The position numbers and the translations under genes are program-made. The notes below the pieces were generated by a model. That model ran no database searches. It saw only the letters and a list, made by a program, of their open reading frames with translations, and was not told the DNA's origin. From Daphnia pulex (taxonomy: Eukaryota; Arthropoda; Branchiopoda; Diplostraca; Daphniidae): a DNA stretch of 64,000 nucleotides. Position 1 is the first letter of the stretch. Every line of letters starts with the position of its first letter. Positions 25,102 to 57,712 of the stretch are shown one piece after another. The stretch spans positions 3,720,001 to 3,784,000 of the forward strand of contig NC_060026.1 of NCBI RefSeq assembly GCF_021134715.1, read 5' to 3'.

Positions 25102-25734
25102 TTAGTCCAAGTCGTTGGAAGGATCGTTGGGTGGGTCGGGCTGATCGTCGGTACTGAGCAGATTGATTCTAGGAAGTCTTATTGCCACCATGAATCGATG
25201 GAAAGCATCGTCGTTCATCAAGATTTCATGGTTCAAGATGACCCGACGACTTCCATCGTGCATCCCAAAATTAGCAATTCTCCGTCTTGGTGGTGCGGGA
25301 GGACGAACGGGTGTGAAAACTTCGCCCTGGGCCGATCCCGAAGTGATGTTGTGAACGAATTGGCTGAACGGTTGCCTGCATGTCGGGCACTCCAACTTGA
25401 CGCGGCACCAGCTGACCAGACAGTCGAAACAAAAGACGTGGCCGCAATCGAGTCGTGATTTGTCCGTTTGGGGACTCATGCAAATGGCGCATTCACCGTG
25501 GTCGTAATTCATCGGTTGGTGTTGGGGACCGGAACTTCCGGAGGGAATGGCAGGTTCATCATTCACAGCAGGTAGATCGTCAGTTGAAAGGCTGGACGTG
25601 GGATTTGCCATTTCAGCTGATTCATCGTCGGTTATTACGTCACCAGCCGGTTCGTCGTTATCCTCCATGTTGGAAACAGGATTCAGATTTTCATTGGCCG
25701 ACTCGTCGTTGAAGTTTGATTGATCGTTGGACAT
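25102..25734 (-). CDS. Small intronless RING-finger protein, probable E3 ubiquitin ligase
   Basis: A single uninterrupted 210-residue frame. Residues 1-75 are acidic, rich in Asn, Asp, Ser and Glu, and probably disordered. A C3HC4 RING follows with Cys82, Cys85, Cys97, His99, Cys102, Cys105, Cys116 and Cys119, all eight zinc ligands present. The C-terminal 90 residues have no known domain, apart from a Pro/Arg-rich stretch near PPAPPRRR. RING domains of this type bind an E2 enzyme and promote ubiquitin transfer; the substrate is unknown. No membrane segment or signal peptide is visible. It has no introns although its neighbours are intron-rich, and it lies between fragments of a decayed receptor kinase on the same strand, so it may be a retrogene or a late insertion. 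An AT-rich TATA-like stretch (AAATAAATAG) lies about 55 bases upstream of the start. Confidence 0.8.
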   Translation of the reverse strand: MSNDQSNFNDESANENLNPVSNMEDNDEPAGDVITDDESAEMANPTSSLSTDDLPAVNDEPAIPSGSSGPQHQPMNYDHGECAICMSPQTDKSRLDCGHVFCFDCLVSWCRVKLECPTCRQPFSQFVHNITSGSAQGEVFTPVRPPAPPRRRIANFGMHDGSRRVILNHEILMNDDAFHRFMVAIRLPRINLLSTDDQPDPPNDPSNDLD

Positions 25735-26161
25735 GTTGAATCTTTGATATCAAGGCAATAACGATAAGAAACCGTGTCGCCTATTTATTTCCCGAGTCCT
25801 TGCCGATTTGCCTCTGCAAGTCCTCATCCGAGCCTATTTCTTTTCATATCATTTCAAATAATTTGAATTCGAGTTTTGTATGGTTTTAAATGGCTGCGTC
25901 TCATTAAATCGCATTTATTTCAATACTTTTAAAAGATAATTCATTGAGACAACAGCCGCAATTCAGGAAAATAAGTTTCACCGCCGAGCGCCATAAACAA
26001 CGTATACTGTGCACACGTCTGTGTACTTTGGTATGCGTCGCGGTTTATACGATGCAAGACACACAGGTGAATTGGGACGAGACACACGGACATAAATTAC
26101 TGGGGTTTTTTTCAGTATTTTCCTTGTGCAGTCAAGAGTAAAATCCTAAAAGCGAAAAAAA

Positions 26162-31300: not shown

Positions 31301-32435
31301 CCGGCATTAGGTGAACAGATATGACAGATTTTGTCTTACCTTTGGTTGCACATAGGAATACTCTTATGTGCCTGTAAATAGAAACAAGAATTTCATTTCT
31401 GACTCTGCATTCTGTGCCTGTAATTTAAATATCTCCCATCCAGATTTTTAATTAGTTTAAATAAATTCAATATTAAACTATTGACTAAGCTGTAACAGCA
31501 TCAGGTAGTTCACATTAAGTTATAATCTAACTTATTCTTCATTAACCAATGAAAGGCACAAGATAACATTTCTAACATTTGGTAAATTATAATCAGAGTT
31601 CTCGTGATTTTACCCAAAAAGTTCTTCCACTCCCCACGGCCCACGCTAAACAAAGCTCAGCGAAACCATCTAATTCCTCTTCAATGTAAGAAATTTATTT
31701 GGGGAAGGTGATAGTATTCACAATATCTGAACAAATGACGACATACCGAAGAAGAAATCGATCCAGCTCCATTAGATGTCTGAGAAATCACAACCTCTGG
31801 TTGTCACCACGTCCATCACAAGCAACGGTCAAGCACTATTGCAGAAAGCCAGAAATACACTATTGCCAAAACTTTGCACATCAATTTCACATACAGTTTC
31901 AGAATTAATTATGTCATGTTAAAATTTAAGAATCAGTACGTATAGACAATAATCTGCTTTACAATAAAATATGAGAACTACGCTCACAATTGTTCACAAA
32001 CTTAAGTGAAACACAAACAGTCGTAGAAAATTTGACCAAAACAAAAAAAAAACGTCGAGAAGGATTCAAACCCCCCCTTTTCTTGGCACAAAAATGCGCA
32101 ACCATATTGTTACCCACCCTCACAACGATTTTTCCGTTGATGAAACATTTAAAAATAATATTAGTTAAAGCACACAATACTGCAGCGTGAATAATCAATT
32201 ACGTCGGCGACTATATATCTGTATAAAGCTGTAAATTTTAAAATATGTAATGTGATAACTTAGACATAACTACTGTCCCTTCTCCCACCGTCCCACGTAA
32301 AGGGAAAAAACAAACAAAAGATAAGCAAATAACACAATGATTTCATATTAGCGAGAATTGCTCTGTACCAATAAATAATTGATTATTACTAACAGTTTTC
32401 TAAGCGCTCTTTGTCTAAAGATTGGAATCCATATG
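31300..32435. other. Intergenic sequence with a block shared with the 23.3-kb region
   Basis: No gene seen. The part at about 31,870-32,130 is similar to 23,230-23,520: both have a CATGTTAAAAT stretch, ACAATCTGCTTT, and a CCCCC-TTTCTTGGCAC stretch. The latter resembles the CCCTTTCTCTTGG-GAAAACAA pieces in the 1-22 kb array. The shared block may be the old 5' flank of the tandem receptor-kinase genes. Confidence 0.5.
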
Positions 32436-34881
32436 GTTTCCCTTTATTCTTTGGCCCGGAATGCCGTCATTTATACCTGGCAGTGAAGAGATTCTCTTCA
32501 ATAAGTTCCGTCATGCAAAAAATCTATTGGCTCTATCGGAGAGATATGTACAGAAATACAAAGGAGGCGGGCGGCTCGTTTAAATATAAAGAAGGACTGC
32601 ATTTACGTTCCCAGGAGAAACCCGTATTGATTAAAGGTAAACAGAGAAGAATTACAAGACCTAGAAAGTCCATCTGACATATATTTCTCAGTGGCCATGA
32701 CGGAGAGTGGAATATACTAGAACGGCATCTCACCTTTCAGTCCGGCACTAGACACCCCGTTCCAACCATCTATAGAGCTGCCAATGCTGCCATCACAACT
32801 GGTTAGTTCACACATAATACAACAAATTTCAACGTGAAAGAAAATATACCTGCGGTTTAAGAAAGAAAATAACTTTTTTTGATGAGTGTGTTCGTGACGC
32901 TCGCACTTTTTTCTAAGGCCGTACTCAATGGCCGCCATAAAATAGAGTAGCCTATATAATATATTCTCTTAGTCGTGTGACCGTGGAGGAAATTTCTAGT
33001 ACAATCAACATTTTTTTTTTTTTTTTAATGGGAAAAGAAAAAAAAAACTGTCAGTCAACTTTATAGATTCAAATCAAAGTCATGTGCAACATCTCCAATC
33101 TTTTTGGCTTGATGTTTTGTCGTGACTGGTCCGTGGCAACCGTCTGTAAACTCTACGAAAGTGATGATTCCACACGACGAGCCACTCCCCAACATCCCAG
33201 TCTATTGCGTAACGTATCACATAGTACGTGGGAGTGTAAAAAGGTGAAATGTTGTTCTTATTCCTAGCGCTCCTTTTCCGACCGCGCGTCCCACCAACAC
33301 CTCGGTGCTCTTGTACCGCGCGCGCGGCAGTGTAAACAACTGGAAGCCCGTTGTATATAACACCCTCCATTGAAGTGTATATGTATACAGCATCAAAGTA
33401 CCACTGCAGTATAAAGGCTAACCTACATATATATATATATATACGTTTTGATATGTATATGTATATATTTATATCTAAAAGCGAGGAGCAGCCGAGCTGC
33501 AACTTGATTTCCATCCTTCGTGAGAAATGGGAATTACACACACAGCACAGCCACAGTTTTCTTATTTTTTTTCTCCTCGGCTTAAAAAAAGTCGAAAATA
33601 AAATCAATTTGGATGTGTAGAAACTGTCGAACACGCGATTCCATTGAAAAACTTTTATTTCTTTTTTTCAATCTCGACCGGCGCAAAAGTTTAGAGACAA
33701 CAAAAACCACTCCCGCAGAATCATTTTCTTCTCTGAAAGAAAAAGAATTGTTTGTCGACGCTGAAGGCTGAGAAACGGTGCCAAAAAATGTTCTTCTTCC
33801 GTCTGCCGCGGCGTGGCGCAATAAAAATCCTGCGAGTGATGCAGGTCGTTGGGGAGACAAGATCATTGTTTAGGCGATCCACAGTCCACACAAGAGAGAG
33901 AATGAAAGAACCTGCACTTTGTTATGACGCATTTTGCGGGGAGACACAAAAGGACGAAAAACAGGGACGTTGTCGCCATCGACGAAAAAATCACCGAAAA
34001 ACAAAATGAAAATTCAAGGCAAAAACAAAATGACCGTACACACACAGCGATCGACATTCCATAAGAAATTGGAAGAAGCCCATCATTCCGGTTGGCGGAA
34101 CTTTTCCCACCCTGGCCGCGAGCATCACCACTCCGCCAAAGGAAACAAAATGTGGGTCATTGGCGCGCGGGCGCGCGGCTTTCAAAAGTTTTCTCTTTTT
34201 TTGAACGAAAAACCGCCAATGTCGTATAGCTCCCTGGGAGGGAAAAACAAAATCATTTTCATTACTTCTTTAACGAAGTAGACGCAAACATCGTAAATTA
34301 GCCCGACAATGGATGTGGTGCGCGGTCAGGCCTGCCGTGAAAGAGAAATAAATAAGTGCGTCTCAGACGACCGATAGTACACCCAGGTTGTATACGTGTA
34401 TACCGATTGATACAATTCCGCGCTGTAAAAATACTACACATAATGATACGGGGGCTGTCATTTTATTTTCTATTCGTCCTGCTCCAAGTGCTCGGCGTGC
34501 GATTTCATCATAACTTTGTTCGTGATTTACTTTTCTTGTGAAAGGCCAGCAGAAAGAAGAAGAATCAACGAGTGGGAACAAACACAAGTGTGTTAAAAAA
34601 CGTAATAAGGATCGTCTTTGGTCATGCGTTCTTGGGTCCGGCGGAACGCTCACTCGGCGTTTCGGGTTTGTTAGTGTCTCCCTCCTTTCCTTTCCAATTC
34701 CGGCCCCCCGGACAGAGATGTTGTATACACAACGGGCACTCAACTCGAGTCCAGTAGCCGTTTGACCAGTCGGCCAGTTGCATCGTTCCAGAAAACGTTC
34801 CAAAATCAAGTTTTTGAAAACCAAGCGCATCTGAACTTGGGGACTTGCTGGGCATCGGATTCGATCCATCGACTTTCTGCC
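32436..34881 (+). promoter_or_regulatory. Duplicated 5' flank of the upstream nompC-like gene
   Basis: This 2.4 kb, repeated at 46,793-49,237, probably holds the promoter and any untranslated first exon. It contains a TA-rich run near 33,430 and a T-run near 33,010, but I could not fix a start site. Open frames here, up to 184 codons on the minus strand, have no family resemblance. An in-frame ATG 40 codons upstream of the chosen start (34,762) exists; I chose 34,882 for its better context (GCCATGG) and because the extra residues look like untranslated leader. Confidence 0.45.
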
Positions 34882-37800
34882 ATGGATTTAAAAGGTGGCG
34901 GTGGCGGCATCAGGTCGGACAAGAAACGCGGACCGGTGACGGCTCTCTTGTCCAGGCAGAATTCCAAAACGGGCAGAGGATCGACTCCGCCGGTGAGCAA
35001 TTCCGATCAGGATTCGCCGCCAGTTGTGCCAGACACAATCGACAGCCCGCTGCTGGGCAGAGCCAACAACAATGGCGCGGGTAATAGCATCAGCCGGACG
35101 TCTTCCATCCGGAGTAAACAGGGGGAGCCATCGGCGGATCGCAACACAAGTCCAATGCCGAAAAGCCGAGACCAGACACCGGAATCGGGAGATTCGATCC
35201 AGTCGACTGGCGATTCTTCCAGCCTCGGCAACAAAGTGGCCGGCAAGCGGATGATTGATTCAGCCAAGAAGAAGATTCTCTGGTTGGCGTCTAAAAACGA
35301 ATGGGGCGGACTGGAACAAGCCATGAAAACGCTGGAACAAACAGTTGCGGCCAACAAAAATTCACCCGAATTACTTTCACCACTGGCCGACATACAGGAC
35401 GAGGTAATAAAAATTCACCTCCACCCCAACTGTCTGAATCCATTAAAAAATATTATTTGATGATATAGTTCACTGGTTACACGCCGCTGATGTACGCCGT
35501 TAAGGACAACCGAATTTCTCTAATGGAGCGGATGATGGAGCTCGGTTGCGACTTGACCACCGTTAACAAAGTACCCAAACTTGATTCTTTTTTCTTTCTT
35601 TTTTTTCCTGGTTTTTTTTTTTGTTTCTGTCAAATTTGACGGTCTACATATCGGCGTGCTCTGTCTGCACGCCCGCAGTAGCACTCTTATTAACGATTCA
35701 CGTCAACAGGTGATGATCATTTTTTATGGCGGTGGCTCTGACCTGTCATCTCTGAGCATATTATCGATCAAACAACCCAAGAAAATAAAGAGAGAAACTG
35801 CGTACATACGAGAGCGCAAATCGGGTGCCGACCAGAGGGGGTCAGCAAGTATAACAAAATATAACAAAAGGGCAAACACACGGAGAAGAAGTTGAGGAAC
35901 ATGTAAACTGTTTACAGATAAATATAGTGATACATATATGCTATAGTGTAAATATAATCCCTTGGGGGTGGTATATCTCTCGTTGCTGGGAGAGCCGCGA
36001 CTTTCATTTTAAATACATAAACCGTGCGGAAGCGTGACACAATACAGTCATCTATTATCCCGAGCTTATACCGGCTTATACGCGGTGCTGACGGGAGTCC
36101 CGCACCGAAATAAAAAGACGCACGCGATCCTCAACACCCCCTAGCAGTCTGGTTCTTTATTCGCAGTTAGGGAAACTTTTTCCTTTTCTTTTTAGTGGGC
36201 ATAGTGCGCGACTCTTCTCTCTCTAACCCCGGAATTTAACAATTTTGATGGATGTGTGTACACAGGATAATTATAACACGTTCCACTTGGCCGTGTTGTA
36301 TTCGAGAGAGGATGTCATCAAGAACTTGCTGGCACGGAAGGCTGACATTACCATTCTGGCCGGGGTAAATAATAAAAAGATGCGCACCAAGTAAACGGAG
36401 GATCTTTAACCTAATCATCGCCATTAATTCATTTTGTTTTTTTGTTTTTCTGTTTGGAATATTTTTTACTAAAAACGTTGGGGGATATTTAAAAAACAGC
36501 CTCGACTACAAAATGTCCTCCATTTAGTGGCGTCGAGAACGGGCGGATCGGGAGCTTCCGTCGCCAAATTGCTACTTGCTTCCGGAGCTAAAGACTTCCG
36601 CTTGGCCAGAGATCAGGTTTTATTCGACATTGCGTGACTCGGGTCTTGACTTAATAGTATCATTAAATTGTTTGCAATTGTGATTGATTATTAGGAGGGC
36701 TATCTACCGCTGCACGTCGCCGTGGAAATAGGCAACATGCACGTGACTAAAGAGTTGCTCAATATGAACGGCGATGTCCAGGTGAAAGCCACTTTCGGAC
36801 CCAAAATGGAGATCGCCTTTCACGCGGCCACCAGACGTCGGGACATTGAACTTTTGAGGATTTTGAACGACCAAGGAAGTCCCGTCGACGCCACCAACGT
36901 AACTAAAACAAAAATTATTGTCACTAATTAGCGTTGACGGTCAAATAACCGTTGGATGATTTTTCAGGCCGAGGGGCAAACTGCTTTGCATATTGCGGCG
37001 GCCGACGGCGACGAGAACATTGTCAAATATCTTCACATGCTCCACGCCAATCCCAACATATCCGATAACGAAGGTAATAATCGATACAAATTAATCAAGA
37101 AATTGATCTGACCTTATCTCACGTCCGAAAAATTCGTTGCAGATCGAACGCCGGTACTGCTGGCAGCTGAAAGAGGTCGGACGGCCGTCGTCGAGATCCT
37201 GACGGAAAAGTTCCGGGCATCCTGTTTGGAGCGCACCAAAGATGGCAGTACTTTGCTGCACGTCGCTTCACTCCATGGACACCCGGAGACGGCCCTGATG
37301 CTGCTCAAAAAGGGAGTCCCACTTCACATGCCTAACAAGGTAACAAGAAAAAAAAATCGTTTGAAAGTTAATCAATAGGAGAATCCAATTCCCAATCGAC
37401 TAACAACGTTGGGCTTGTTGAAATTGTAGAGTGGAGCCAGGAGTATTCACATCGCGGCACGAAAAGGCCACGTCGGAGTCATCCAGACTCTTTTGTTGAA
37501 GGGCGAACAAGTGGATGCCACTACAAATGTAGGAATGAACATAATTAACAGCAGATTAGGTTTTAAAAATATAATTTGAATTTGTTGATTTTGTTACGAT
37601 AGGATAATTACACGGCACTTCATGTGGCTGTCCAGGCTGGAAAAGCTAATGTTGTAGAGACCCTGTTGGGATACGGAGCTCAAGTTCACATCCGAGGTAT
37701 ACATGGATTATTTTAAATTGATAAATGATTTAATTTAATTGATTTTAAATTTTCCTACATGGACAGCTGGAACCTTGCAAGAAACGCCTTTGCATATAGC

Positions 37801-40800
37801 GGCCAGGGTGACGGAAGGAGGTGAGAAATGTGTGCAAATGCTACTGAAATCCGGATGCGATGCCAACATCAATCGAGCCGATGGAGTTCGACCGCTTCAC
37901 GTGGCGGCCAGTGAGGGGCATTTCGGTGTAGTTCGACTCCTTCTTGCCGATGGGGCTGATCCTTTGCTGGTGAACATCAACGGTGAAACGCCTCTCCAGG
38001 TGGCTTGCGGCACGTCACATCCAGGGACGCTTTCCGTCGTCCAGCTGTTACTGGAACACGTCCAAGCCGGATCGGGTTCAGCCGCTACCTACGTCAATAC
38101 CCGCAACTCTATCGGTGAAACATCTTTACACGCGGCCAGTAACCAACCCCGAATTACCACAACCGTCAAAGGAAAATATCCTGATCGTGACATTGCCCAG
38201 TCTTTGCTCCAGGCCGGCGGAGATGTTAGTCTCGACACCTATCAAGTAAACAGTCTAATTTTAACTCCTGAAAAGATTAAAAATGTAATTACATTTCAAT
38301 CATATTTTGGTTCAAGACGAAAGAGAATCCACTGCACTACTGCGCCTCCCAGGGTAACGTTCCCGTTCTGTTGGCCCTGCTGGCCAGCATTCGACCGACG
38401 GAATTACAGCGGGTGGTCAACAAACAGAATTTATTGGGTCGATCACCTTTGCAAGTGGCGGCAAAGAACGGCCATCTTCAGTGCGCTCTACTTTTACTTC
38501 AAAATCAGGTATTAAATAATTACCAAGGCCTATTTATAATGTTTTATTACGTAATTACTTTTATTGTTTTCAGGCTCGAGTCGACGTCTTCGATAACGAC
38601 GGAATGTCGGCCTTACATTTGGCGTCCGAATCGGGACACGGGGCCGTTTGCGACGCTCTTTTGACTCACAACGCTTTTGTCAACAGCAAATCGCGTGTCG
38701 GACTGACTCCTATCCACTTGGCGGCCCTTAAAGGCTATACTGAACTGGTCCGGTCATTGGTGACTGTCCACGGAGCCACAATTGACGCCCTAACTTTGGT
38801 AAAAAAAAACAAAAAACAAATTTAAATGTTTTAAAGTTGAACGACCAATTGAATTTACTCTTTGATTGATTTCTAGCGGAAGGAAACGGCACTTCAATTG
38901 GCAGCCGGAGCCGGCCAGCTTGATGTGTGCAGTCTTTTAGTTGAATTAGGAGCCGAAACGAGTGCAGCGGACGAGTTGGGTCGTAAAGCGATTCATTTGG
39001 CCGCCCAGCAGAACCACTCAGAAGTGGTGCGTTTGTTTCTGAAACACCAGCCGGCCCTTGTGTTGGCAGCCAATAAGGTATTATAAAGCCCTAGAAAGAA
39101 AAAAGAAACATTTCTTAATAAAAAGTGATTCATGGGATACGACAATGGCATCGGACAGGACGGTAATACCTGCGCCCATATTGCTGCGATGCAAGGATCG
39201 GTGGACGTGCTCCAGCAGTTGATGAAATTCGACCTATCGATCGTGACGGCCTCTCGCAACCGGACGAGCGAATCGACTCCTCTCCACCTAGCGGCTGAAG
39301 GTGGACATGCGGATGTGGTGAAAATGTTGCTGGAAGCCGGAGCACTTCCGCAGGATGAGAATAAAGTAATGTAGTCTGCTCACTTTTGTACATCACAGGA
39401 ATTTGTGTTGTGTAAAAATGTGATTTGCTAACGTGACAGGCCGGATTCACAGCCATTCAATTGGCAGCCAAAAACGGGCACAATGTAGTCATCGACGTCT
39501 TACGCGACGCCAGTCCCGACACGCTCAGCTATGCGAGTCGTCGAACCGGATTGAATTCTTTACACGTCGCTGCTTGCTACGGTCAATCGGGTGAGAATTC
39601 CACCGGTTCCGTTGTACATTTTGAATACCTTCCTTAATTACCTGTCAATCAGAAATTGTTCGAGAAATGTTGGCACACGTTCCGGCCGGTGTGCGATCAG
39701 AAGCGCCGACAAGTTTATCCGGAACGGGAGTTCTTCGTGAGTTGGACGGCGAGGCTGGGCTGACGCCATTACATTTAGCCGCATATTCTGGCGATGAGAA
39801 TGTTGTTCGGCTCCTTCTCAACTCGGCCGGCGTCACGGTGGACCAGCCATCCGCCCAAAATGTACCGCACCGCATCTATTATAGATCGGATGTGATTAGA
39901 AATCATTTTTAAATCTGTTTGGCTAGGGTTTTACCGCATTGCACTTGGCATGCCGAGGAGGCCACGGACCAGTGGCTGGCCTCTTACTTAGCCGCTCCAC
40001 TGGACTCTTGACCACTCCAGACGGACACGGGCGATCACCACTTCATGTGGCCGCCGCTCACGGGCACGGACGATTAGTGGAGCTCCTTCTCGGTCAAGGA
40101 GCCGACATCAATGCTGCAGACAAAGTAGATTTTTGGGGGATTTATTTTTAAGTCACCTCTATTTCATAGCTGGATTCTTCTTTTCAGGCTGGATGGACGG
40201 CCCTTCATCTAGCCGCTCGAGCCGGTCATCTGGCAATGGTCCAATTGTTGCTGGACAGTGGAGCCACGCCTCGTAGTTTCAACGATAATGGGCGAATTCC
40301 GTTATGGTACGCAGCTTCAGAAGGTCACACTTCCGTCTTGACTTTACTTTTGAAACGGGAACATGATGCCTACGGTTTGATGGAAGATCGCAAAGTAACT
40401 TTTAATTCATGAATTAACACGAAGGGGTTTAGTAAATGAATTATCGCATCAACTAGTTTGTCTACAACCTGATGGTTTGTGGCAAAAATCACAACAACTT
40501 GCCACTGTGCGAATTCATTTTGGAATCGCCAGCGCCTGTGGACGTGGCCGCCAAATTATCGCACATCCTAGCCACATTGTCCGTCAAGGTAAAGTGATTT
40601 TCATGAAATTGAGCTTACATTACCTGATGCCATCCGTATTGCAGGAAAAAGAGAGGTCAAAGGACCTGCTCCTCATCTCCTCACTCTGCATGAACGAACA
40701 TTCCTGGGTTCTCTCTCCTGCTCAGGCTGGTCGCTACCAGCATATTCTTTTGGACATTATGGAAAAGTTGGCGGATAGATCATTAAGGTATTTAGCACGA

Positions 40801-40941
40801 TAGTTTAATAGAAGTGACCGAATTGATTTCTTATTGAATAACAGGCCAAATATTCATCACACCGTTATGCTGGACGGTGTGCCCGATGCAATGAAAACTC
40901 TGGATACCGTACGGGTTGGCAAAGTTGTCATGGCCTCATGA
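34882..40941 (+). CDS. Chimeric gene: NOMPC N-terminus and ankyrin array fused to a dehydrogenase-like tail, no channel
   Basis: There are 21 exons: 34882-35403, 35469-35570, 36266-36364, 36500-36616, 36695-36898, 36968-37073, 37143-37339, 37430-37528, 37603-37696, 37767-38245, 38317-38508, 38574-38798, 38877-39077, 39159-39365, 39440-39590, 39653-39861, 39927-40124, 40188-40394, 40457-40588, 40645-40787 and 40845-40941. All are in phase: 3,981 bases, 1,326 residues. Residues 1 to about 1,256 equal NOMPC: a Ser/Gly-rich N-terminus, then the long ankyrin array (repeats such as TPLHIAA, GLTPIHLAA). Inside exon 20, after EKERSKDLL, the sequence switches to a 70-residue tail with SLCMNEHSWVLSPAQAG and HTVMLDGVPDAMKTL, ending GRVGKVVM-like (VRVGKVVMAS). 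The tail resembles the C-terminus of medium-chain dehydrogenases/reductases. AATAAA follows at 40,950. All membrane segments are lost, so the protein should be soluble. The fusion keeps the frame and has no stops, so it may be expressed; a dead duplicate is the alternative. Confidence 0.75.
36083..36107. repeat. GC-rich hairpin in intron 2 of the chimeric gene (also 50,439-50,463)
   Basis: CGGTGC and GCACCG arms enclose GGGA/TCCC, giving a compact stem in an otherwise AT-rich 695-base intron, the longest of the gene. Its role, if any, is unknown. Confidence 0.5.
40645..40941 (+). other. Captured MDR-type C-terminal tail (two exons) at the fusion
   Basis: The foreign part starts at 40,671 and covers the end of one exon (donor GTATTT at 40,788) and a second exon (acceptor AACAG at 40,844) to TGA at 40,939-40,941. 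The pattern 'helix, RP, HH-x-V-L-x-x-V-P-x-A-x-x-T-L, GKVV' follows the last helix and strand of quinone-oxidoreductase-like MDR proteins. The rest of that enzyme (nucleotide-binding fold, catalytic part) is not in the window. Family assignment is tentative because only about 70 residues remain. Confidence 0.45.
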
Positions 40942-40949
40942 GCAATTTG

Positions 40950-40955
40950 AATAAA
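40950..40955 (+). terminator. AATAAA polyadenylation signal of the chimeric gene
   Basis: AATAAA lies nine bases after the TGA codon, before a GT-rich stretch (TTCTGGTCTCGTTC). This is a plausible 3' end brought in with the captured tail. Confidence 0.5.
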
Positions 40956-41598
40956 CACATTCTGGTCTCGTTCATGCCGCCTTCTCCATTCTGCTCGAGG
41001 ATCGGTTATTTCTAGATTTTTCTTCTAAGATTCAGAGGTAAACTAAAGTCGTCGTTGAGAGTACACAAAACAGATTTAGGATATATTTTTACGAAGGCTG
41101 TATTATTTTCATTTACTGTAAAATTTAATTCAAGGGAGAGGGGGTATAAATGAGGTTCAAATACGCAGCTTTTTTTCTTATCAAATTTTGCGAGTTAGTG
41201 TGGATAAAACATCTTTAGCGGGACAACATACACGAATCCCGCCATATTCGCATGCAAACGAATCTTTTTCTAAAAAAATCGTAGTAGAGAAAATGGGAGG
41301 GGGGTAAAGAATAGGACAGAACGAAAAACAACAAAGCCAAAGACGAAAAATGCTGACGATCTGGAAAATACAGATAAAGTATCATAAATGGTAGATGAAA
41401 AATGTAAGATTGAAAAAAGGCAAATGATATAAAACCGTTTTCTATCAAGACCCGAAAAAGATTTTTGACGACAACGGTATGCAAAGTGCCGACGTGAAGG
41501 CAAGTGTTGTTAGGATGGAGACAAAGGCGTGTGATCATGATGATGGGTTCACCAAAAGAAAACGTGATATCTACTTTGTTCTGTGGCGATTCGACAAT

Positions 41599-45300
<3,702 letters not shown>

Positions 45301-45303
45301 TTA

Positions 45304-45466
45304 AGATCGGAAGCGTTTAGCTCCAGAAGATACAATCAAGGACGTGATAGACGCAGTTAACGCCACCCAGGGTCAAGAAGAATTGTTAAAACTGACGCGC
45401 GACGATTATTTCACCTTATTTATAACCAGAGAAGACCAAAGCTGTATTGCGAGCCAAACGTGGCCA
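45304..45466 (+). other. Coding-like open stretch, unidentified
   Basis: The plus strand reads RKRLAPEDTIKDVIDAVNAT and GQEELLKLTRDDYFTLF before a stop. Composition is that of a soluble helical protein, and an AG precedes it (TTAATTAAG). No family is recognised and no donor is clear. It may be an exon remnant. Confidence 0.25.
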
Positions 45467-45566
45467 TGATCGGCCATGATGAACTTGAAGGACTGCTCCG
45501 TTCCCAAGTTATCGTCCTCGCTAGCCGTTATCGTAGACATTTTACCAGAGACGCCGGAAATCTTAC

Positions 45567-45780
45567 CGCAACTCGCCCAGCAGCTCGCCCAGCAGTTTGA
45601 TCGAGCTGTATAGGCCTAGCGAATGCGTCAGTTGTCGTCGAACAGACCAATCCAGTTCGGGTAACAAAAGAATGATGGCAAAGTCGCCGAACATGTTGAA
45701 AATGCGCTGTCCGACGCACAGGGCCGTGTCTACGACAAACATTTCTTGTCGGCGAGCGCCTTCAGTATAAAACGAATGAT
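45567..45780 (-). other. Orphan exon-like block with good splice sites, unidentified protein piece
   Basis: A 214-base minus-strand block lies between an acceptor (TTAGCTAG) and a strong donor (GTAAGA). It is open in one frame for about 70 codons, reading HSFYTEGARRQEMFVVDTAL, NMFGDFAIILLLPELDW and QLTHSLGLYSSIKLLGELL. The amphipathic, non-repetitive composition looks like real protein. I recognise no family, and no neighbouring exon was found on this strand. It could be a fragment left by the rearrangement between the nompC copies. Confidence 0.4.
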
Positions 45781-45940
45781 CTAGCTAATACAAGGCATGA
45801 ATCAGCGTGTGATTATAAATTCAACAACATCAGAAGGGAATTTTCACCAGCAACTCGGCTTAGTTATGAATACAGCTCATTAATGAAAAACTTACAATAT
45901 CAATATTTGATAATCCAAATCAAATATTAACTAAATTAAA

Positions 45941-45992
45941 ATTAGTCATGCTAACGCTGCCAACCATTTCGTGTCGGATAGTTTATGGCAAA
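45941..45992 (+). repeat. 52-base direct repeat, copy 1
   Basis: Identical to 46,568-46,619, starting ATTAGTCATGCTAACGCTGC. Flanking AT-rich bases are also loosely similar, so the duplicated unit may be about 120 bases. Confidence 0.9.
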
Positions 45993-46567
45993 CGGGGCTG
46001 GTGCATTGGGCTCGTAAGTCGCATTGCCAAGATACTGTTATTCTGTTCAATTGTGTTTAAATCTGTTGATATCGAGAATTTGAAAGAATGAGCATCATTC
46101 AATATTGCCCTTACTTCGACAATTTTAAATTTTTATTGGCAATTTACAAGTTTCTAATTCAGACGAATTGAACCAAGTAGTCGATCGCCCTCATAGAGAA
46201 CTGAGATGAAATAACATTTATATTACCAATGTTTGTATTGTAGGGGTGCAGTGCATCATCACGCAACGATGTGCACGACGCCCAGCGGAGCGACACTAAG
46301 CAGACAAATTCAAATCTTTGCATTGGTCTGCAGTTCGCTTGCCCGGAGACGCGTTAAATAAACCAGGAGAATCTGGAATACTAAATAATAAAATGATAGA
46401 ATATTTACGTTGATGTAATTACCAAACATAAAACCAATGGAACCCTATGTTATGTTATAACATTATGAAAAACGGATTCCTCCTAGATACTCGGCACAAT
46501 AATGAATAAGGCTCATTATTTAAAACTTGTTAAAATATTCGCTAATCTAAATATTGACTAAATAAAC

Positions 46568-46619
46568 ATTAGTCATGCTAACGCTGCCAACCATTTCGTG
46601 TCGGATAGTTTATGGCAAA
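46568..46619 (+). repeat. 52-base direct repeat, copy 2, near the nompC duplication junction
   Basis: Second copy of the 52-base unit. It ends about 170 bases left of the junction at 46,793 where the duplicated nompC segment starts. It may mark rearrangement activity here. Confidence 0.9.
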
Positions 46620-46792
46620 TCGCCAGCACTTGTCAACACTCATCAAAAATTTACACAGTTCGTGTTACACTCCTGCGATGAAATAATTCCAAATACGCAA
46701 TCCCATCGCAATTTAATAGTCGCCTTTATTACGGTACTTCAATTTGAATTTCAAATTCCATTCTCGTGTGATTTTCGGCCTTCCATTGTATT

Positions 46793-49700
46793 GTTTCCCT
46801 TTATTCTTTGGCCCGGAATGCCGTCATTTATACCTGGCAGTGAAGAGATTCTCTTCAATAAGTTCCGTCATGCAAAAAATCTATTGGCTCTATCGGAGAG
46901 ATATGTACAGAAATACAAAGGAGGCGGGCGGCTCGTTTAAATATAAAGAAGGACTGCATTTACGTTCCCAGGAGAAACCCGTATTGATTAAAGGTAAACA
47001 GAGAAGAATTACAAGACCTAGAAAGTCCATCTGACATATATTTCTCAGTGGCCATGACGGAGAGTGGAATATACTAGAACGGCATCTCACCTTTCAGTCC
47101 GGCACTAGACACCCCGTTCCAACCATCTATAGAGCTGCCAATGCTGCCATCACAACTGGTTAGTTCACACATAATACAACAAATTTCAACGTGAAAGAAA
47201 ATATACCTGCGGTTAAGAAAGAAAATAACTTTTTTTGATGAGTGTGTTCGTGACGCTCGCACTTTTTTCTAAGGCCGTACTCAATGGCCGCCATAAAATA
47301 GAGTAGCCTATATAATATATTCTCTTAGTCGTGTGACCGTGGAGGAAATTTCTAGTACAATCAACATTTTTTTTTTTTTTTTAATGGGAAAAGAAAAAAA
47401 AAACTGTCAGTCAACTTTATAGATTCAAATCAAAGTCATGTGCAACATCTCCAATCTTTTTGGCTTGATGTTTTGTCGTGACTGGTCCGTGGCAACCGTC
47501 TGTAAACTCTACGAAAGTGATGATTCCACACGACGAGCCACTCCCCAACATCCCAGTCTATTGCGTAACGTATCACATAGTACGTGGGAGTGTAAAAAGG
47601 TGAAATGTTGTTCTTATTCCTAGCGCTCCTTTTCCGACCGCGCGTCCCACCAACACCTCGGTGCTCTTGTACCGCGCGCGCGGCAGTGTAAACAACTGGA
47701 AGCCCGTTGTATATAACACCCTCCATTGAAGTGTATATGTATACAGCATCAAAGTACCACTGCAGTATAAAGGCTAACCTACATATATATATATATATAC
47801 GTTTTGATATGTATATGTATATATTTATATCTAAAAGCGAGGAGCAGCCGAGCTGCAACTTGATTTCCATCCTTCGTGAGAAATGGGAATTACACACACA
47901 GCACAGCCACAGTTTTCTTATTTTTTTTCTCCTCGGCTTAAAAAAAGTCGAAAATAAAATCAATTTGGATGTGTAGAAACTGTCGAACACGCGATTCCAT
48001 TGAAAAACTTTTATTTCTTTTTTTCAATCTCGACCGGCGCAAAAGTTTAGAGACAACAAAAACCACTCCCGCAGAATCATTTTCTTCTCTGAAAGAAAAA
48101 GAATTGTTTGTCGACGCTGAAGGCTGAGAAACGGTGCCAAAAAATGTTCTTCTTCCGTCTGCCGCGGCGTGGCGCAATAAAAATCCTGCGAGTGATGCAG
48201 GTCGTTGGGGAGACAAGATCATTGTTTAGGCGATCCACAGTCCACACAAGAGAGAGAATGAAAGAACCTGCACTTTGTTATGACGCATTTTGCGGGGAGA
48301 CACAAAAGGACGAAAAACAGGGACGTTGTCGCCATCGACGAAAAAATCACCGAAAAACAAAATGAAAATTCAAGGCAAAAACAAAATGACCGTACACACA
48401 CAGCGATCGACATTCCATAAGAAATTGGAAGAAGCCCATCATTCCGGTTGGCGGAACTTTTCCCACCCTGGCCGCGAGCATCACCACTCCGCCAAAGGAA
48501 ACAAAATGTGGGTCATTGGCGCGCGGGCGCGCGGCTTTCAAAAGTTTTCTCTTTTTTTGAACGAAAAACCGCCAATGTCGTATAGCTCCCTGGGAGGGAA
48601 AAACAAAATCATTTTCATTACTTCTTTAACGAAGTAGACGCAAACATCGTAAATTAGCCCGACAATGGATGTGGTGCGCGGTCAGGCCTGCCGTGAAAGA
48701 GAAATAAATAAGTGCGTCTCAGACGACCGATAGTACACCCAGGTTGTATACGTGTATACCGATTGATACAATTCCGCGCTGTAAAAATACTACACATAAT
48801 GATACGGGGGCTGTCATTTTATTTTCTATTCGTCCTGCTCCAAGTGCTCGGCGTGCGATTTCATCATAACTTTGTTCGTGATTTACTTTTCTTGTGAAAG
48901 GCCAGCAGAAAGAAGAAGAATCAACGAGTGGGAACAAACACAAGTGTGTTAAAAAACGTAATAAGGATCGTCTTTGGTCATGCGTTCTTGGGTCCGGCGG
49001 AACGCTCACTCGGCGTTTCGGGTTTGTTAGTGTCTCCCTCCTTTCCTTTCCAATTCCGGCCCCCCGGACAGAGATGTTGTATACACAACGGGCACTCAAC
49101 TCGAGTCCAGTAGCCGTTTGACCAGTCGGCCAGTTGCATCGTTCCAGAAAACGTTCCAAAATCAAGTTTTTGAAAACCAAGCGCATCTGAACTTGGGGAC
49201 TTGCTGGGCATCGGATTCGATCCATCGACTTTCTGCCATGGATTTAAAAGGTGGCGGTGGCGGCATCAGGTCGGACAAGAAACGCGGACCGGTGACGGCT
49301 CTCTTGTCCAGGCAGAATTCCAAAACGGGCAGAGGATCGACTCCGCCGGTGAGCAATTCCGATCAGGATTCGCCGCCAGTTGTGCCAGACACAATCGACA
49401 GCCCGCTGCTGGGCAGAGCCAACAACAATGGCGCGGGTAATAGCATCAGCCGGACGTCTTCCATCCGGAGTAAACAGGGGGAGCCATCGGCGGATCGCAA
49501 CACAAGTCCAATGCCGAAAAGCCGAGACCAGACACCGGAATCGGGAGATTCGATCCAGTCGACTGGCGATTCTTCCAGCCTCGGCAACAAAGTGGCCGGC
49601 AAGCGGATGATTGATTCAGCCAAGAAGAAGATTCTCTGGTTGGCGTCTAAAAACGAATGGGGCGGACTGGAACAAGCCATGAAAACGCTGGAACAAACAG

Positions 49701-52700
49701 TTGCGGCCAACAAAAATTCACCCGAATTACTTTCACCACTGGCCGACATACAGGACGAGGTAATAAAAATTCACCTCCACCCCAACTGTCTGAATCCATT
49801 AAAAAATATTATTTGATGATATAGTTCACTGGTTACACGCCGCTGATGTACGCCGTTAAGGACAACCGAATTTCTCTAATGGAGCGGATGATGGAGCTCG
49901 GTTGCGACTTGACCACCGTTAACAAAGTACCCAAACTTGATTCTTTTTTCTTTCTTTTTTTTCCTGGTTTTTTTTTTTGTTTCTGTCAAATTTGACGGTC
50001 TACATATCGGCGTGCTCTGTCTGCACGCCCGCAGTAGCACTCTTATTAACGATTCACGTCAACAGGTGATGATCATTTTTTATGGCGGTGGCTCTGACCT
50101 GTCATCTCTGAGCATATTATCGATCAAACAACCCAAGAAAATAAAGAGAGAAACTGCGTACATACGAGAGCGCAAATCGGGTGCCGACCAGAGGGGGTCA
50201 GCAAGTATAACAAAATATAACAAAAGGGCAAACACACGGAGAAGAAGTTGAGGAACATGTAAACTGTTTACAGATAAATATAGTGATACATATATGCTAT
50301 AGTGTAAATATAATCCCTTGGGGGTGGTATATCTCTCGTTGCTGGGAGAGCCGCGACTTTCATTTTAAATACATAAACCGTGCGGAAGCGTGACACAATA
50401 CAGTCATCTATTATCCCGAGCTTATACCGGCTTATACGCGGTGCTGACGGGAGTCCCGCACCGAAATAAAAAGACGCACGCGATCCTCAACACCCCCTAG
50501 CAGTCTGGTTCTTTATTCGCAGTTAGGGAAACTTTTTCCTTTTCTTTTTAGTGGGCATAGTGCGCGACTCTTCTCTCTCTAACCCCGGAATTTAACAATT
50601 TTGATGGATATGTGTACACAGGATAATTATAACACGTTCCACTTGGCCGTGTTGTATTCGAGAGAGGATGTCATCAAGAACTTGCTGGCACGGAAGGCTG
50701 ACATTACCATTCTGGCCGGGGTAAATAATAAAAAGATGCGCACCAAGTAAACGGAGGATCTTTAACCTAATCATCGCCATTAATTCATTTTGTTTTTTTG
50801 TTTTTCTGTTTGGAATATTTTTTACTAAAAACGTTGGGGGATATTTAAAAAACAGCCTCGACTACAAAATGTCCTCCATTTAGTGGCGTCGAGAACGGGC
50901 GGATCGGGAGCTTCCGTCGCCAAATTGCTACTTGCTTCCGGAGCTAAAGACTTCCGCTTGGCCAGAGATCAGGTTTTATTCGACATTGCGTGACTCGGGT
51001 CTTGACTTAATAGTATCATTAAATTGTTTGCAATTGTGATTGATTATTAGGAGGGCTATCTACCGCTGCACGTCGCCGTGGAAATAGGCAACATGCACGT
51101 GACTAAAGAGTTGCTCAATATGAACGGCGATGTCCAGGTGAAAGCCACTTTCGGACCCAAAATGGAGATCGCCTTTCACGCGGCCACCAGACGTCGGGAC
51201 ATTGAACTTTTGAGGATTTTGAACGACCAAGGAAGTCCCGTCGACGCCACCAACGTAACTAAAACAAAAATTATTGTCACTAATTAGCGTTGACGGTCAA
51301 ATAACCGTTGGATGATTTTTCAGGCCGAGGGGCAAACTGCTTTGCATATTGCGGCGGCCGACGGCGACGAGAACATTGTCAAATATCTTCACATGCTCCA
51401 CGCCAATCCCAACATATCCGATAACGAAGGTAATAATCGATACAAATTAATCAAGAAATTGATCTGACCTTATCTCACGTCCGAAAAATTCGTTGCAGAT
51501 CGAACGCCGGTACTGCTGGCAGCTGAAAGAGGTCGGACGGCCGTCGTCGAGATCCTGACGGAAAAGTTCCGGGCATCCTGTTTGGAGCGCACCAAAGATG
51601 GCAGTACTTTGCTGCACGTCGCTTCACTCCATGGACACCCGGAGACGGCCCTGATGCTGCTCAAAAAGGGAGTCCCACTTCACATGCCTAACAAGGTAAC
51701 AAGAAAAAAAAATCGTTTGAAAGTTAATCAATAGGAGAATCCAATTCCCAATCGACTAACAACGTTGGGCTTGTTGAAATTGTAGAGTGGAGCCAGGAGT
51801 ATTCACATCGCGGCACGAAAAGGCCACGTCGGAGTCATCCAGACTCTTTTGTTGAAGGGCGAACAAGTGGATGCCACTACAAATGTAGGAATGAACATAA
51901 TTAACAGCAGATTAGGTTTTAAAAATATAATTTGAATTTGTTGATTTTGTTACGATAGGATAATTACACGGCACTTCATGTGGCTGTCCAGGCTGGAAAA
52001 GCTAATGTTGTAGAGACCCTGTTGGGATACGGAGCTCAAGTTCACATCCGAGGTATACATGGATTATTTTAAATTGATAAATGATTTAATTTAATTGATT
52101 TTAAATTTTCCTACATGGACAGCTGGAACCTTGCAAGAAACGCCTTTGCATATAGCGGCCAGGGTGACGGAAGGAGGTGAGAAATGTGTGCAAATGCTAC
52201 TGAAATCCGGATGCGATGCCAACATCAATCGAGCCGATGGAGTTCGACCGCTTCACGTGGCGGCCAGTGAGGGGCATTTCGGTGTAGTTCGACTCCTTCT
52301 TGCCGATGGGGCTGATCCTTTGCTGGTGAACATCAACGGTGAAACGCCTCTCCAGGTGGCTTGCGGCACGTCACATCCAGGGACGCTTTCCGTCGTCCAG
52401 CTGTTACTGGAACACGTCCAAGCCGGATCGGGTTCAGCCGCTACCTACGTCAATACCCGCAACTCTATCGGTGAAACATCTTTACACGCGGCCAGTAACC
52501 AACCCCGAATTACCACAACCGTCAAAGGAAAATATCCTGATCGTGACATTGCCCAGTCTTTGCTCCAGGCCGGCGGAGATGTTAGTCTCGACACCTATCA
52601 AGTAAACAGTCTAATTTTAACTCCTGAAAAGATTAAAAATGTAATTACATTTCAATCATATTTTGGTTCAAGACGAAAGAGAATCCACTGCACTACTGCG

Positions 52701-55021
52701 CCTCCCAGGGTAACGTTCCCGTTCTGTTGGCCCTGCTGGCCAGCATTCGACCGACGGAATTACAGCGGGTGGTCAACAAACAGAATTTATTGGGTCGATC
52801 ACCTTTGCAAGTGGCGGCAAAGAACGGCCATCTTCAGTGCGCTCTACTTTTACTTCAAAATCAGGTATTAAATAATTACCAAGGCCTATTTATAATGTTT
52901 TATTACGTAATTACTTTTATTGTTTTCAGGCTCGAGTCGACGTCTTCGATAACGACGGAATGTCGGCCTTACATTTGGCGTCCGAATCGGGACACGGGGC
53001 CGTTTGCGACGCTCTTTTGACTCACAACGCTTTTGTCAACAGCAAATCGCGTGTCGGACTGACTCCTATCCACTTGGCGGCCCTTAAAGGCTATACTGAA
53101 CTGGTCCGGTCATTGGTGACTGTCCACGGAGCCACGATTGACGCCCTAACTTTGGTAAAAACAAAAAAAAAGGATTTAAATGTTTTAAAGTTGAACGACC
53201 AATTGAATTTACTCTTTGATTGATTTCTAGCGGAAGGAAACGGCACTTCAATTGGCAGCCGGAGCCGGCCAGCTTGATGTGTGCAGTCTTTTAGTTGAAT
53301 TAGGAGCCGAAACGAGTGCAGCGGACGAGTTGGGTCGTAAAGCGATTCATTTGGCCGCCCAGCAGAACCACTCAGAAGTGGTGCGTTTGTTTCTGAAACA
53401 CCAGCCGGCCCTTGTGTTGGCAGCCAATAAGGTATTATAAAGCCCTAGAAAGAAAAAAGAAACATTTCTTAATAAAAAGTGATTCATGGGATACGACAAT
53501 GGCATCGGACAGGACGGTAATACCTGCGCCCATATTGCTGCGATGCAAGGATCGGTGGACGTGCTCCAGCAGTTGATGAAATTCGACCTATCGATCGTGA
53601 CGGCCTCTCGCAACCGGACGAGCGAATCGACTCCTCTCCACCTAGCGGCTGAAGGTGGACATGCGGATGTGGTGAAAATGTTGCTGGAAGCCGGAGCACT
53701 TCCGCAGGATGAGAATAAAGTAATATAGTCTGCTCACTTTTGTACATCACAGGAATTTGTGTTGTGTAAAAATGTGATTTGCTACCGTGACAGGCCGGAT
53801 TCACAGCCATTCAATTGGCAGCCAAAAACGGGCACAATGTAGTCATCGACGTCTTACGCGACGCCAGTCCCGACACGCTCAGCTATGCGAGTCGTCGAAC
53901 CGGATTGAATTCTTTACACGTCGCTGCTTGCTACGGCCAATCGGGTGAGAATTCCACCAGTTCCGTTGTACATTTGGAATGCCTTCCTTAATTGCTTGTC
54001 AATCAGAAATTGTTCGAGAAATGTTGGCACACGTTCCGGCCGGTGTGCGATCAGAAGCGCCGACAAGTTTATCCGGAACGGGAGTTCTTCGTGAGTTGGA
54101 CGGCGAGGCTGGGCTGACGCCATTACATTTAGCCGCATATTCTGGCGATGAGAATGTTGTCCGGCTCCTTCTCAACTCGGCCGGCGTCACGGTGGACCAG
54201 CCATCTGCCCAAAATGTACCGCACCGCATCTGTTAGATCGAACGTGATTAGAAATCATTTTTAAATCTGTTCGACTAGGGTTTCACCGCATTGCATTTGG
54301 CATGTCGAGGAGGCCACGGACCAGTGGCTGGCCTCTTACTTAGCCGCTCCACTGGGCTCTTGACCACTCCAGACGGACACGGGCGATCACCACTTCATGT
54401 GGCCGCCGCTCACGGGCACGGACGATTAGTGGAGCTCCTTCTCGGTCAAGGAGCCGACATCAATGCTGCAGACAAAGTAGATTTGGAGGGATTTATTTTT
54501 AAGTCGCCTCTATTTCATAGCTGGATTCTTCTTTTCAGGCTGGATGGACGGCCCTCCATCTAGCCGCTCGAGCCGGTCACCTGGCAATGGTCCAATTGTT
54601 ACTGGACAGTGGAGCCACGCCTCGTAGTTTCAACGATAATGGGCGAATTCCGTTATGGTACGCAGCTTCAGAAGGTCACACTTCCGTCTTGACTTTACTT
54701 TTGAAACGGGAACATGATGCCTACGGTTTGATGGAAGATCGAAAAGTAAGATTTAATTCATTAATTAACACGAAAGAGTTTAGTAAATGAATTATCGCAT
54801 CAACTAGTTTGTCTACAACCTGATGGTTTGTGGCAAAAATCACAACAACTTGCCACTGTGCGAATTCATTTTGGAATCGCCAGCGCCTGTGGACGTGGCC
54901 GCCAAATTATCGCACATCCTAGCCACATTGTCCGTCAAGGTAAAGTGATTTTCATGAAATTGAGCTTACATTACTTGATGCCATCCGTATTGCAGGAAAA
55001 AGAGAGGTCAAAGGACCTGCT
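46793..55021 (+). repeat. 8.2-kb segmental duplication, downstream copy
   Basis: Direct-repeat partner of 32,436-40,670. At 55,021 this copy simply continues in nompC exon 20, so it holds the ancestral right-hand junction and the upstream copy is the truncated one. About 6.1 kb lie between the end of the first copy and the start of this one. Confidence 0.95.
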
Positions 55022-57152
55022 GGAAGCTGCCAAGCACTGCGAGTCGATGGCTACTGAATTGTTGGCCTTGGCTTCATCTTTGGAAGGAGCTGCCCGTCTT
55101 CTGACGGCCCAAGATCGAAGGCAGATGCCACTGTTAGACATCCTTGTTGAACAGGAACAGAAGGAAGTCATTTCCCATCCAGCTGTCCAGCGCTACCTTC
55201 AAGTCAGCTCAAAAGAAGGTTGAATTTGGTCGTTCCAGTCAATCAATAATTTTCTTTCTTTTTTCCAACACAATCAGGAAGTCTGGCTAGGAGGATTGCA
55301 ATGGGCACCGTGGAAACTTCTTTTACTGTTCCTGTGCTGCGTCGTTTTGCCGCCCGTTTGGCTCTGCTTGTGTCTTCCACTCGGACATCGTTACGACAAA
55401 ATCCCCGTCATTAGGTAAATTTTCTAAAGATGAATTACAGATAATCAGTACTAAAAGGTAAAACGATAATTACAGGTTCATGGCTTACTTGACGTCTCAC
55501 ATCTATTTAATGACGCTCCTGATTTTGACGAGTACTTTGCCCATTTGTCCCGTTTTGCGGACGTCGTTGCTTCCTTGGTAATCAGCAATACGAGTTTTCA
55601 TTAGTATAATTTGTTAATTCATCTTCTTTAAATCGAATTTTTAGTTGGTACGAATGGTTGCTACTTATTTGGCTATCGGGCGTTTTACTGGCTGAACTGG
55701 CCACACCAAGAGACAGAGGCGGATTGGGTTGGCTCAGGATCGCTATCCTCTTCATCAGCGCGATTGCCATTTTGATCCACGCCGTAGCATTCCTCTTGAA
55801 ACCGGAGCATTGGACCGTCGCTCTATTCTTCCGTAATCAACTGCTGGCCGTCGTCGTCCTACTGTGTTGCATGCTCCTTCTCGATTTCCTGTCCTTCCAT
55901 TACCTGTTTGGTCCATGGGCCATAATAATCGGTTAGTTGTCTCAATCAAGTTTCAATGTTTCTTTTAATATCTAAATGAAATGTTTTAAGGGAACCTGAT
56001 GGTCGACGCTTGCCGTTTCCTCATCATTTTGGCCATCTTCATGTTCGGATTTACGATGGTTGGTTTTGATTGATAAGAAAATTTCTCGTTGGGTTGTTCT
56101 AATGAAGGACATTTTGTCTTGTTCCAGCATGTGGCTGCACTCAACCAACCGTTTTGGGCAAGGGATATCACACCCATCACGGCTAAAACCATAACAGGTG
56201 GTTTGAATTCAGGAGGTGATACATTTGAATATTTAAGATAATCTACCGTAAATGATTCATCACGGTGTGGTTGGTCCTTTCACAGTTGTGGTGACACCGT
56301 TGGACACATTCCAATTGCTCTTCTTCGCGCTGTTTGGTCTGACGCAACCGGCCGATTTGCGGATGGAGACAGCTCAGCCCGAATGGACACTCTTTTTCTA
56401 CAAAATAGTCTTCGGGTTCTACATGTTGGTGACCACCGTCGTGCTCATCAACATGCTTATTGCCATGATGAGCGACACCTACCAGAGAATACAGGTAAAA
56501 TCATGTGTTATTATGTAAATTGAATTATTTGAATTCAGACTGCAGTTTTGAAGGCTCAATCGGATGTGGAATGGAAGTTTGGACTAGCCAAATTGGTTCG
56601 GGCTATGCATCGTACGGCGGCCACTCCATCTCCACTCAATCTGTTTACTTCGTGGATTAGTTACCTGTGGCAGTTATCTAGGAAACAAGGTAACATTCTT
56701 TAAAAACATCTTTTGTGTGAAGAAGCATGTCCAGTATGCTCGTATGCCACTAATGTATCTAACGCTTATTCATTACTACCTCAACCCTCAGTTGTCCATG
56801 AGAATGCGGATGATCATGCACGACTGGTTAGACAATGTGCCCCATCGGCAAGTGAGAACAACAAAGGATGGATGAGAAAGTTCCAGCACAAAACCAAAGT
56901 CGGTCATCGAGGTATTTGTCCTGCTAAACAAAACTAAATTTAAAGAATTTCCAACGGGTGTACAAATAAGATAATACTAAACCTACACATTTTTTGGGGG
57001 TTGCAGAGTCCAATGCATTGGGGGTTGTCCGTCCGGCTCCTCTTAGTTCACAAATGTCGATTATCGGCGATCGCAACAGCTTGGAACATGTCACTGATTG
57101 GCGCGTAGTCGTCAAGCAGTACATCAGCAACAACTTGTCGCAGTGCAATTAA
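49238..57152 (+). CDS. nompC: NOMPC (TRPN) mechanotransduction channel, complete
   Basis: There are 29 exons: 49238-49759, 49825-49926, 50622-50720, 50856-50972, 51051-51254, 51324-51429, 51499-51695, 51786-51884, 51959-52052, 52123-52601, 52673-52864, 52930-53154, 53231-53431, 53513-53719, 53794-53944, 54007-54215, 54279-54476, 54539-54745, 54808-54939, 54996-55202, 55278-55414, 55476-55577, 55645-55931, 55991-56058, 56128-56197, 56286-56494, 56539-56689, 56792-56911 and 57007-57152. All are in phase: 1,745 residues, as expected for the family. NOMPC opens in response to force carried by its ankyrin tether to microtubules in touch and hearing organs. The N-terminus is Ser/Gly-rich; ankyrin repeats run from about residue 185 to 1,170. 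A linker (EKERSKDLLEAAKHCESMAT) is followed by membrane segments: WKLLLLFLCCVVLPPVWLCL, WYEWLLLIWLSGVLLAEL, FLSFHYLFGPWAIIIG, pore FQLLFFALFGLTQ, and last segment VVLINMLIAMMSDTYQRIQ. A TRP-domain region follows with DVEWKFGLAKLVRAMHR. Exon 20 needs the weaker donor GTCAGC at 55,203; a donor at 55,219 would shift the frame. Confidence 0.95.
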
Positions 57153-57712
57153 ATAGAAAAAAATTCTGAATTATTAAATTATTAACATTTTTGGGATATT
57201 GAATTATAAATGATATGCAATGCTAACAGAACAGAATATAAAGTTGTTTTGACAAGTCATGTATTAAATCTAGCAGCACACTTTTAGGATTTTTTTTTGT
57301 ACAAAAATTGAAACTTATGACAGTGATATGATTCACAGGATGAGGGAAAATTCGTAGCCATAACTACGATATGTTTTCTTATTTTTTTTTTTCAAATGTT
57401 TTTTGGTTTAAATTTTCGCGACTTTTTGAAAAATAAAAAAATGTTAAAACGCGACAAATCGGAATGGCAGAAAGGGAAACAATCGAGATATCGATGTTAT
57501 GTACAACGTCCTTTGTGGGAAATGGGGGAAAGAACACGTAAATTTCATATTATAAATATTCTTAGAAGGTCAGTGATTACTATCCATCGCTAAAACTGCG
57601 CCAATTCTAACGTAGAGATGGGCGGTGGAGTCGTCAGGGAAACAGCATGCCATCTAGAAATCAAAACGAACGTTACAAAATTGGTCACTAAATATTGCTA
57701 GGCAATAAAAGC
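57153..57712. other. Convergent 3' ends of nompC and cyclin A
   Basis: No gene is seen in this 560-base gap. It should hold the 3' untranslated regions of both genes. It is AT-rich with a T-run near 57,383. Confidence 0.6.

Follow-up and report, generated by a model that had tools for sequence, protein, structure and literature searches.

A chimeric gene was found in Daphnia pulex on the forward strand at 34,882-40,941 of the analysed window, by which the whole stretch of 64,000 bases is meant (contig NC_060026.1, here C10, positions 3,720,001 to 3,784,000). The gene joins the ankyrin region of NOMPC in frame to the 3' end of CRYZL1 (quinone oxidoreductase-like 1), the source of the foreign tail, whose parent gene lies 59 kb upstream. 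It is probably young and seems to have arisen by head-to-tail tandem duplication, one breakpoint lying in NOMPC exon 20 and the other in the penultimate exon of CRYZL1. By its sequence organisation the fusion belongs to a known class, the chimeric genes made by tandem duplication in which a 5' and a 3' gene part are joined on the same strand. How the locus is built and that the reading frame is open were observed directly; the order of events, transcription, translation and any present effect are what we infer from them.

The gene model of the fusion consists of 21 exons with GT-AG introns and a coding sequence of 3,981 nt for 1,326 amino acids. The upstream NOMPC copy contributes the ATG at 34,882, 19 complete exons with their introns (34,882-40,588, + strand, assigned by the gene model and Pfam ankyrin families) and the first 26 nt of exon 20, which starts at 40,645 and is NOMPC until 40,670. 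The coordinates stated in the preliminary description of the locus were confirmed. At 40,671 the sequence switches in the middle of codon 1,256, which reads CT plus C (Leu) in the fusion and CT plus G in the full copy. After this CT, 20 filler bases are followed by CRYZL1, starting at TGAACGAAC. The fusion exon (40,645-40,787, + strand) is composed of 26 nt of NOMPC exon 20, 20 nt of filler and 97 nt of the CRYZL1 penultimate exon. As had also been described, the frame carries on through a GT donor after 40,787 and an AG acceptor before 40,845 into the final exon (40,845-40,941, + strand), identified by the gene model and its match to the parent as the last CRYZL1 exon with its own stop. The terminal TGA ending at 40,941 is the sole stop in the coding sequence (internal stops: 0), in agreement with the earlier reading of a stop-free frame of 1,326 codons, and is followed by CRYZL1's own poly(A) signal AATAAA (40,950-40,955, + strand). 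In the predicted protein, 1,255 residues stem from NOMPC and the last 63 from CRYZL1; between them lie the joint codon and 7 residues that the filler encodes in whole or in part. A long ankyrin array was detected in this protein with Pfam Ank_2 (E 7.7e-165).

Full-length NOMPC is encoded by the downstream copy (49,238-57,152, + strand; 29 exons in the model, 1,745 amino acids, full reading frame), which was aligned with Drosophila NOMPC (PDB 5vkq) over 5vkq residues 56-1736. As in Drosophila NOMPC/TRPN, exons 1-19 of the fusion encode the ankyrin region. Unlike Drosophila NOMPC, the fusion is without most of the linker domain, the six transmembrane helices and the pore, and this remainder is confined to the downstream NOMPC copy. 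The 5' flank of the upstream copy (32,432-34,881, + strand) is common to 46,789-49,237 apart from a single substitution over 2,450 bases and a gap of 1 base, and the copied NOMPC promoter presumably lies within it. Beside full-length NOMPC a cyclin-A-like gene, named by eye, was seen on the minus strand at 57650-59330.

The parental CRYZL1 exons matched chain C of PDB 7nd2 with an E value of 4.5e-71; the exons examined, which flank the breakpoint on both sides, are present in the parent and match 7nd2. The fusion keeps the last 63 residues of CRYZL1 in their native exon structure and frame. A NOMPC ankyrin tether without a channel, carrying a dehydrogenase-like tail, had been proposed at the outset; the chimera stood, and the tail proved to be only these 63 residues. 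A dehydrogenase domain was ruled out by Pfam coverage. No ADH_N match was obtained for the fusion tail, and ADH_zinc_N_2 was matched at positions 78-133 of 134 only, with 17.2 bits (cut-off 27). The parent itself passed only for ADH_N (32.9, cut-off 23.5), its score for ADH_zinc_N_2 being 25.5. Failure at the cut-off is therefore weak evidence by itself, and it is because of missing length rather than the Pfam cut-off that the tail was not taken as a full NAD(P)-binding fold. Judged from coverage and length, the tail is too small for an enzyme. CRYZL1 is listed as a subunit of the FERRY complex in the available excerpt of PMC11928052. Unlike CRYZL1, the fusion is without ADH_N and a complete cofactor-binding fold, and it would not be expected to work as an enzyme or as a normal subunit.

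Comparison of the two NOMPC copies and of their neighbourhood provided the evidence for the duplication. Positions 32,432-40,670 duplicate 46,789-55,021 over 8,239 alignment columns at 99.45% identity, far beyond chance. A DNA search of the genome (133,188,837 bases, 13 contigs) with 32,000-40,670 returned 4 matches. Two of these were the copies themselves, and the other two covered only the repeat to the left of 32,432. At the parental locus, CRYZL1 and its neighbour are convergent and both lie upstream of NOMPC. This neighbour, which we take to be scrib (scribble), was named by eye from its first exon and a PDZ-like reading frame; a PDZ domain was recognised by eye in a long reading frame at C10:3,707,417-3,708,850, between the parental scrib blocks. 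Pfam assigned no family to the two small scrib pieces.

Past 40,670 the end of CRYZL1, the 3' and 5' parts of scrib and NOMPC repeat the parental order and orientation, intergenic DNA excepted, which argues for a head-to-tail tandem duplication. The 3' ends of CRYZL1 (+ strand) and scrib (- strand) form one block at 40,691-42,958 (+ orientation), which matches C10:3,701,570-3,703,816 at 98.4% with 16 substitutions, one 20-bp gap and one 1-bp gap. The 5' end of scrib (42,980-43,648, - strand) matches C10:3,712,691-3,713,348 at 97.8%. In the present assembly the duplication unit measures 59,101 bases (C10:3,701,570 to 3,760,670). No high-identity intergenic match was found between the copies, which speaks against this model; a duplication of the whole 59 kb would have to have been followed by loss of this DNA in one copy or by its growth in the other.

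The duplicated stretch would have run from the CRYZL1 penultimate exon through the convergent scrib and intergenic DNA to NOMPC exon 20. The NOMPC end would then have been sealed to the CRYZL1 end via 20 bp of filler, the CRYZL1 frame being kept by chance. In the same event or later, the second scrib would have been shortened by an internal deletion, and it would also have received a frameshifting insertion, while the second intergenic stretch would have turned mostly into repeats. The outcome would be a chimera that takes its 5' flank and exons 1-19 from NOMPC and its final splice sites, stop codon and poly(A) signal from CRYZL1.

The 20-bp filler at the duplication joint (40,671-40,690, + strand) matches neither parent, and no 12-base template for it was found on either strand of the surrounding 114 kb (12-mers of 40,665-40,696). 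Only one of the three frames in which the CRYZL1 part can be entered is open through to the CRYZL1 stop. Combined with an open 20-nt filler, this gives a joint chance of ~0.24 by a simple estimate, or overall between about 1 in 4 and 1 in 3. Because CRYZL1 supplied the splice sites, stop and AATAAA, luck is limited to the frame and the open filler. The preliminary description had offered luck or function as explanations of an open, spliced and polyadenylated tail at a random junction; luck was retained for the frame, and chance was withdrawn for splicing and polyadenylation, since those signals are CRYZL1's own. A tail of random DNA that happens to splice was ruled out as well, since from C10:3,701,570 on CRYZL1 contains these very exons together with the splice donor and acceptor, the stop codon and AATAAA.

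The joint was also examined as a possible assembly artefact, in which two diverged haplotypes would have been joined end to end at NOMPC exon 20 and CRYZL1. Such a false join would give the identical block order and orientation, and the patchy divergence of 0.05%-4.6% between the copies resembles allelic variation. However, the surrounding 114 kb contain no N, an overlap join or a scaffolding gap would not normally create 20 bp that belong to neither side, and the second block carries its own internal scrib deletion with filler. An artefact was considered improbable on these grounds, and tandem duplication was kept as the preferred origin.

About 8.9 kb of scrib are missing at the deletion joint, which is occupied by a second filler (42,959-42,979, no strand assigned). 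A template search for this filler with 11-mers gave one match, the flank at the filler's own source. A palindrome (GCTTAGTC-ACTGA-GACTAAGC) was read by eye at 42,975-42,995, adjoining the TTAGG-like filler; it suggests snap-back repair synthesis as a putative mechanism. A 20-bp insertion in the scrib fragment (42,770-42,789, - strand) is absent from the parent and causes a frameshift that leads to a stop. By eye, the scrib fragment beside the CRYZL1 tail differs by this frameshift, one silent change and one amino-acid change. As a variant of the tandem duplication, and compatible with it, a single replication-based template-switching event may have produced the duplication joint together with the scrib deletion and both fillers, in place of a duplication with a later deletion. 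This variant is doubtful, though conceivable: it would account for two joints with short fillers, one of them with a snap-back-like palindrome, and for the similar substitution levels of the two scrib blocks (16 substitutions in 2,247 sites, 0.7%, in the CRYZL1-scrib block; 4 in about 655, an approximate number of sites, 0.6%, in the second scrib block), but the 3.1 kb repeat-rich spacer demands further steps.

The spacer (43,649-46,788, no strand assigned) is covered to ~84% (summed) by matches elsewhere in the genome and showed no high-identity homology to the sequence that precedes the upstream NOMPC copy. The genome DNA matches numbered 45 in all; two were followed as sources, and 5 further loci were aligned for the spacer repeats. 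A dispersed repeat of ~1 kb (45,812-46,792), with an 89% copy on contig C2, abuts the second NOMPC copy at its left edge. On the other side, a repeat match stops at 32,404, close to where the first copy begins on the left. The only traces of the intergenic DNA in parental order were weak matches of 43,706-44,006 (to C10:3,716,381-3,716,683, 82%) and of 46,028-46,118 (to C10:3,716,858-3,716,948, 79%); their divergence is too great for an origin in the same event, and they probably represent repeats, or else old homology. Elsewhere in the window, a 3.9 kb tandem duplicate (1-3939 and 11390-15329, 98.4% identity) sits inside an array of more diverged repeats (~62-83%) at 1-23 kb, and a RING-finger-like single-exon reading frame, named by eye, is located on the minus strand at 25105-25749.

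In total, 39 substitutions and 6 gap columns separate the two NOMPC copies. Within the 1,255 codons that both contain, the count of unpolarised differences was 12 synonymous and 0 non-synonymous. The preliminary description had called for a comparison of the copies in exons 15-19 as those in which they differ; all 12 coding changes were synonymous, and the differing exons were found to start at 12 (38,780) and not at 15. At 32,432-38,779 only 2 substitutions occur in 6,348 bases, none of them in coding sequence (0.05% at noncoding sites). At 38,780-40,670 the total is 37, made up of 25 in 541 noncoding bases (4.6%) and 12 in 1,350 coding bases. Fisher's test on this tract was run with 600 noncoding sites rather than the counted 541, by which the contrast was understated. 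The noncoding divergence rises in a sharp step from 0.05% to 4.6% at 38,780-40,624, reaching almost to the duplication joint.

The divergent tract 38,780-40,670 probably represents pre-existing NOMPC alleles, judging from its depth. The block divergences would not fit a single duplication date without conversion or allelic exchange. Allele exchange at or after the duplication would explain the contrast in depth without extra assumptions, and the silent changes would then show only the constraint on NOMPC alleles. Alternatively, the duplication may be older, with the 4.6% as its true depth, and the 5' part and spacer may have been homogenised by later gene conversion; if true, this would favour selection. 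Purifying selection on the fusion was not accepted as the reading of the 12:0 ratio, since the divergence is distributed in blocks of very different depth (0.05%, 4.6% and, in the spacer, 0.7%).

An alternative reading is that the fusion is a functional new gene, expressed in mechanosensory neurons via the copied NOMPC promoter and selected as a soluble ankyrin decoy or scaffold. Its frame is fully open, and the copies differ at silent sites only; if six of the 12 changes had fallen in an unconstrained fusion, the probability that all were silent by chance would be 0.0002-0.0008. The CRYZL1 tail, read by eye against its parent, shows 2 synonymous changes and no other coding change, whereas the neighbouring scrib fragment is frameshifted. 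In addition, the ankyrin region of NOMPC has been reported to be associated with microtubules (PMC8186909 and PMC9108448, as excerpted). Against a functional gene, the noncoding divergence of the tract, deeper than that of the spacer and much deeper than that of the 5' block, is what would be expected of pre-existing alleles, and the tail covers only part of a fold. The chance of finding no nonsense change without selection is 0.62 at 0.35% divergence per lineage, 0.39 at 0.7% and 0.09 at 1.8%, so that at spacer-level depth the open frame of the fusion is unsurprising without selection. A selected function was judged unlikely on this balance. The present state of the fusion is most likely that of a recent by-product of the tandem duplication, neutral or mildly harmful.

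An mRNA whose stop codon is located in the last exon escapes nonsense-mediated decay. The stop of the fusion is in its last exon, and the mRNA, if transcribed, should therefore be stable. The encoded protein would then be soluble and consist largely of ankyrin repeats; it would lack most of the linker domain, the membrane helices and the pore and would end in 63 CRYZL1 residues. The simplest action of such a protein, if any, would possibly be that of a channel-less decoy or scaffold at the microtubule site of NOMPC. A more elaborate proposal is that the fusion is a newborn NOMPC gating spring without a channel, which would be expressed in the same neurons and retained for tuning touch by competition for microtubule sites, its CRYZL1 tail providing a new partner, e.g., the mRNA-carrying FERRY complex; this proposal was regarded as very unlikely.

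Comparable chimeras have been described in Drosophila yakuba, where 76 chimeric genes from tandem duplications were reported for 15 lines, 24 of the 76 being upregulated (Rogers et al. 2017, PMC5460883). According to the available part of the same source, these chimeras occur at lower frequency than whole-gene duplicates, and one case combines a duplication with a secondary deletion. An earlier study cited there found signals of positive selection more often in chimeras than in whole-gene copies, which speaks against assuming a by-product. The Daphnia fusion resembles the D. yakuba chimeras (PMC5460883, as excerpted) in the head-to-tail join of a 5' to a 3' gene part, in the probable persistence of the parents and in the secondary deletion. 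It differs from them in that a mechanosensory channel gene is involved, that the joint is exonic on both sides and that it contains 20 bp of filler. For Daphnia, copy-number mutations are described as frequent, with events of 0.6-89 kb cited for D. pulex (PMC8691059, excerpt). In literature searches, no title on this fusion was found under NompC and Daphnia; among the matches listed for chimeric genes, tandem duplication and gene conversion in Daphnia, the fusion was not named in a title or at the start of an abstract; and no paper combined all the terms searched for a truncated or dominant-negative NompC.

The locus presents a chimeric gene near its birth at base resolution; the parents, the joint with its filler and scrib as a decaying bystander all lie within ~77 kb. 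It illustrates why such fusions can resemble finished genes, since the neighbouring gene supplies ready-made 3' splice sites, a stop codon and a poly(A) signal. If expressed, the fusion would constitute a natural test of the NOMPC ankyrin array without a pore.
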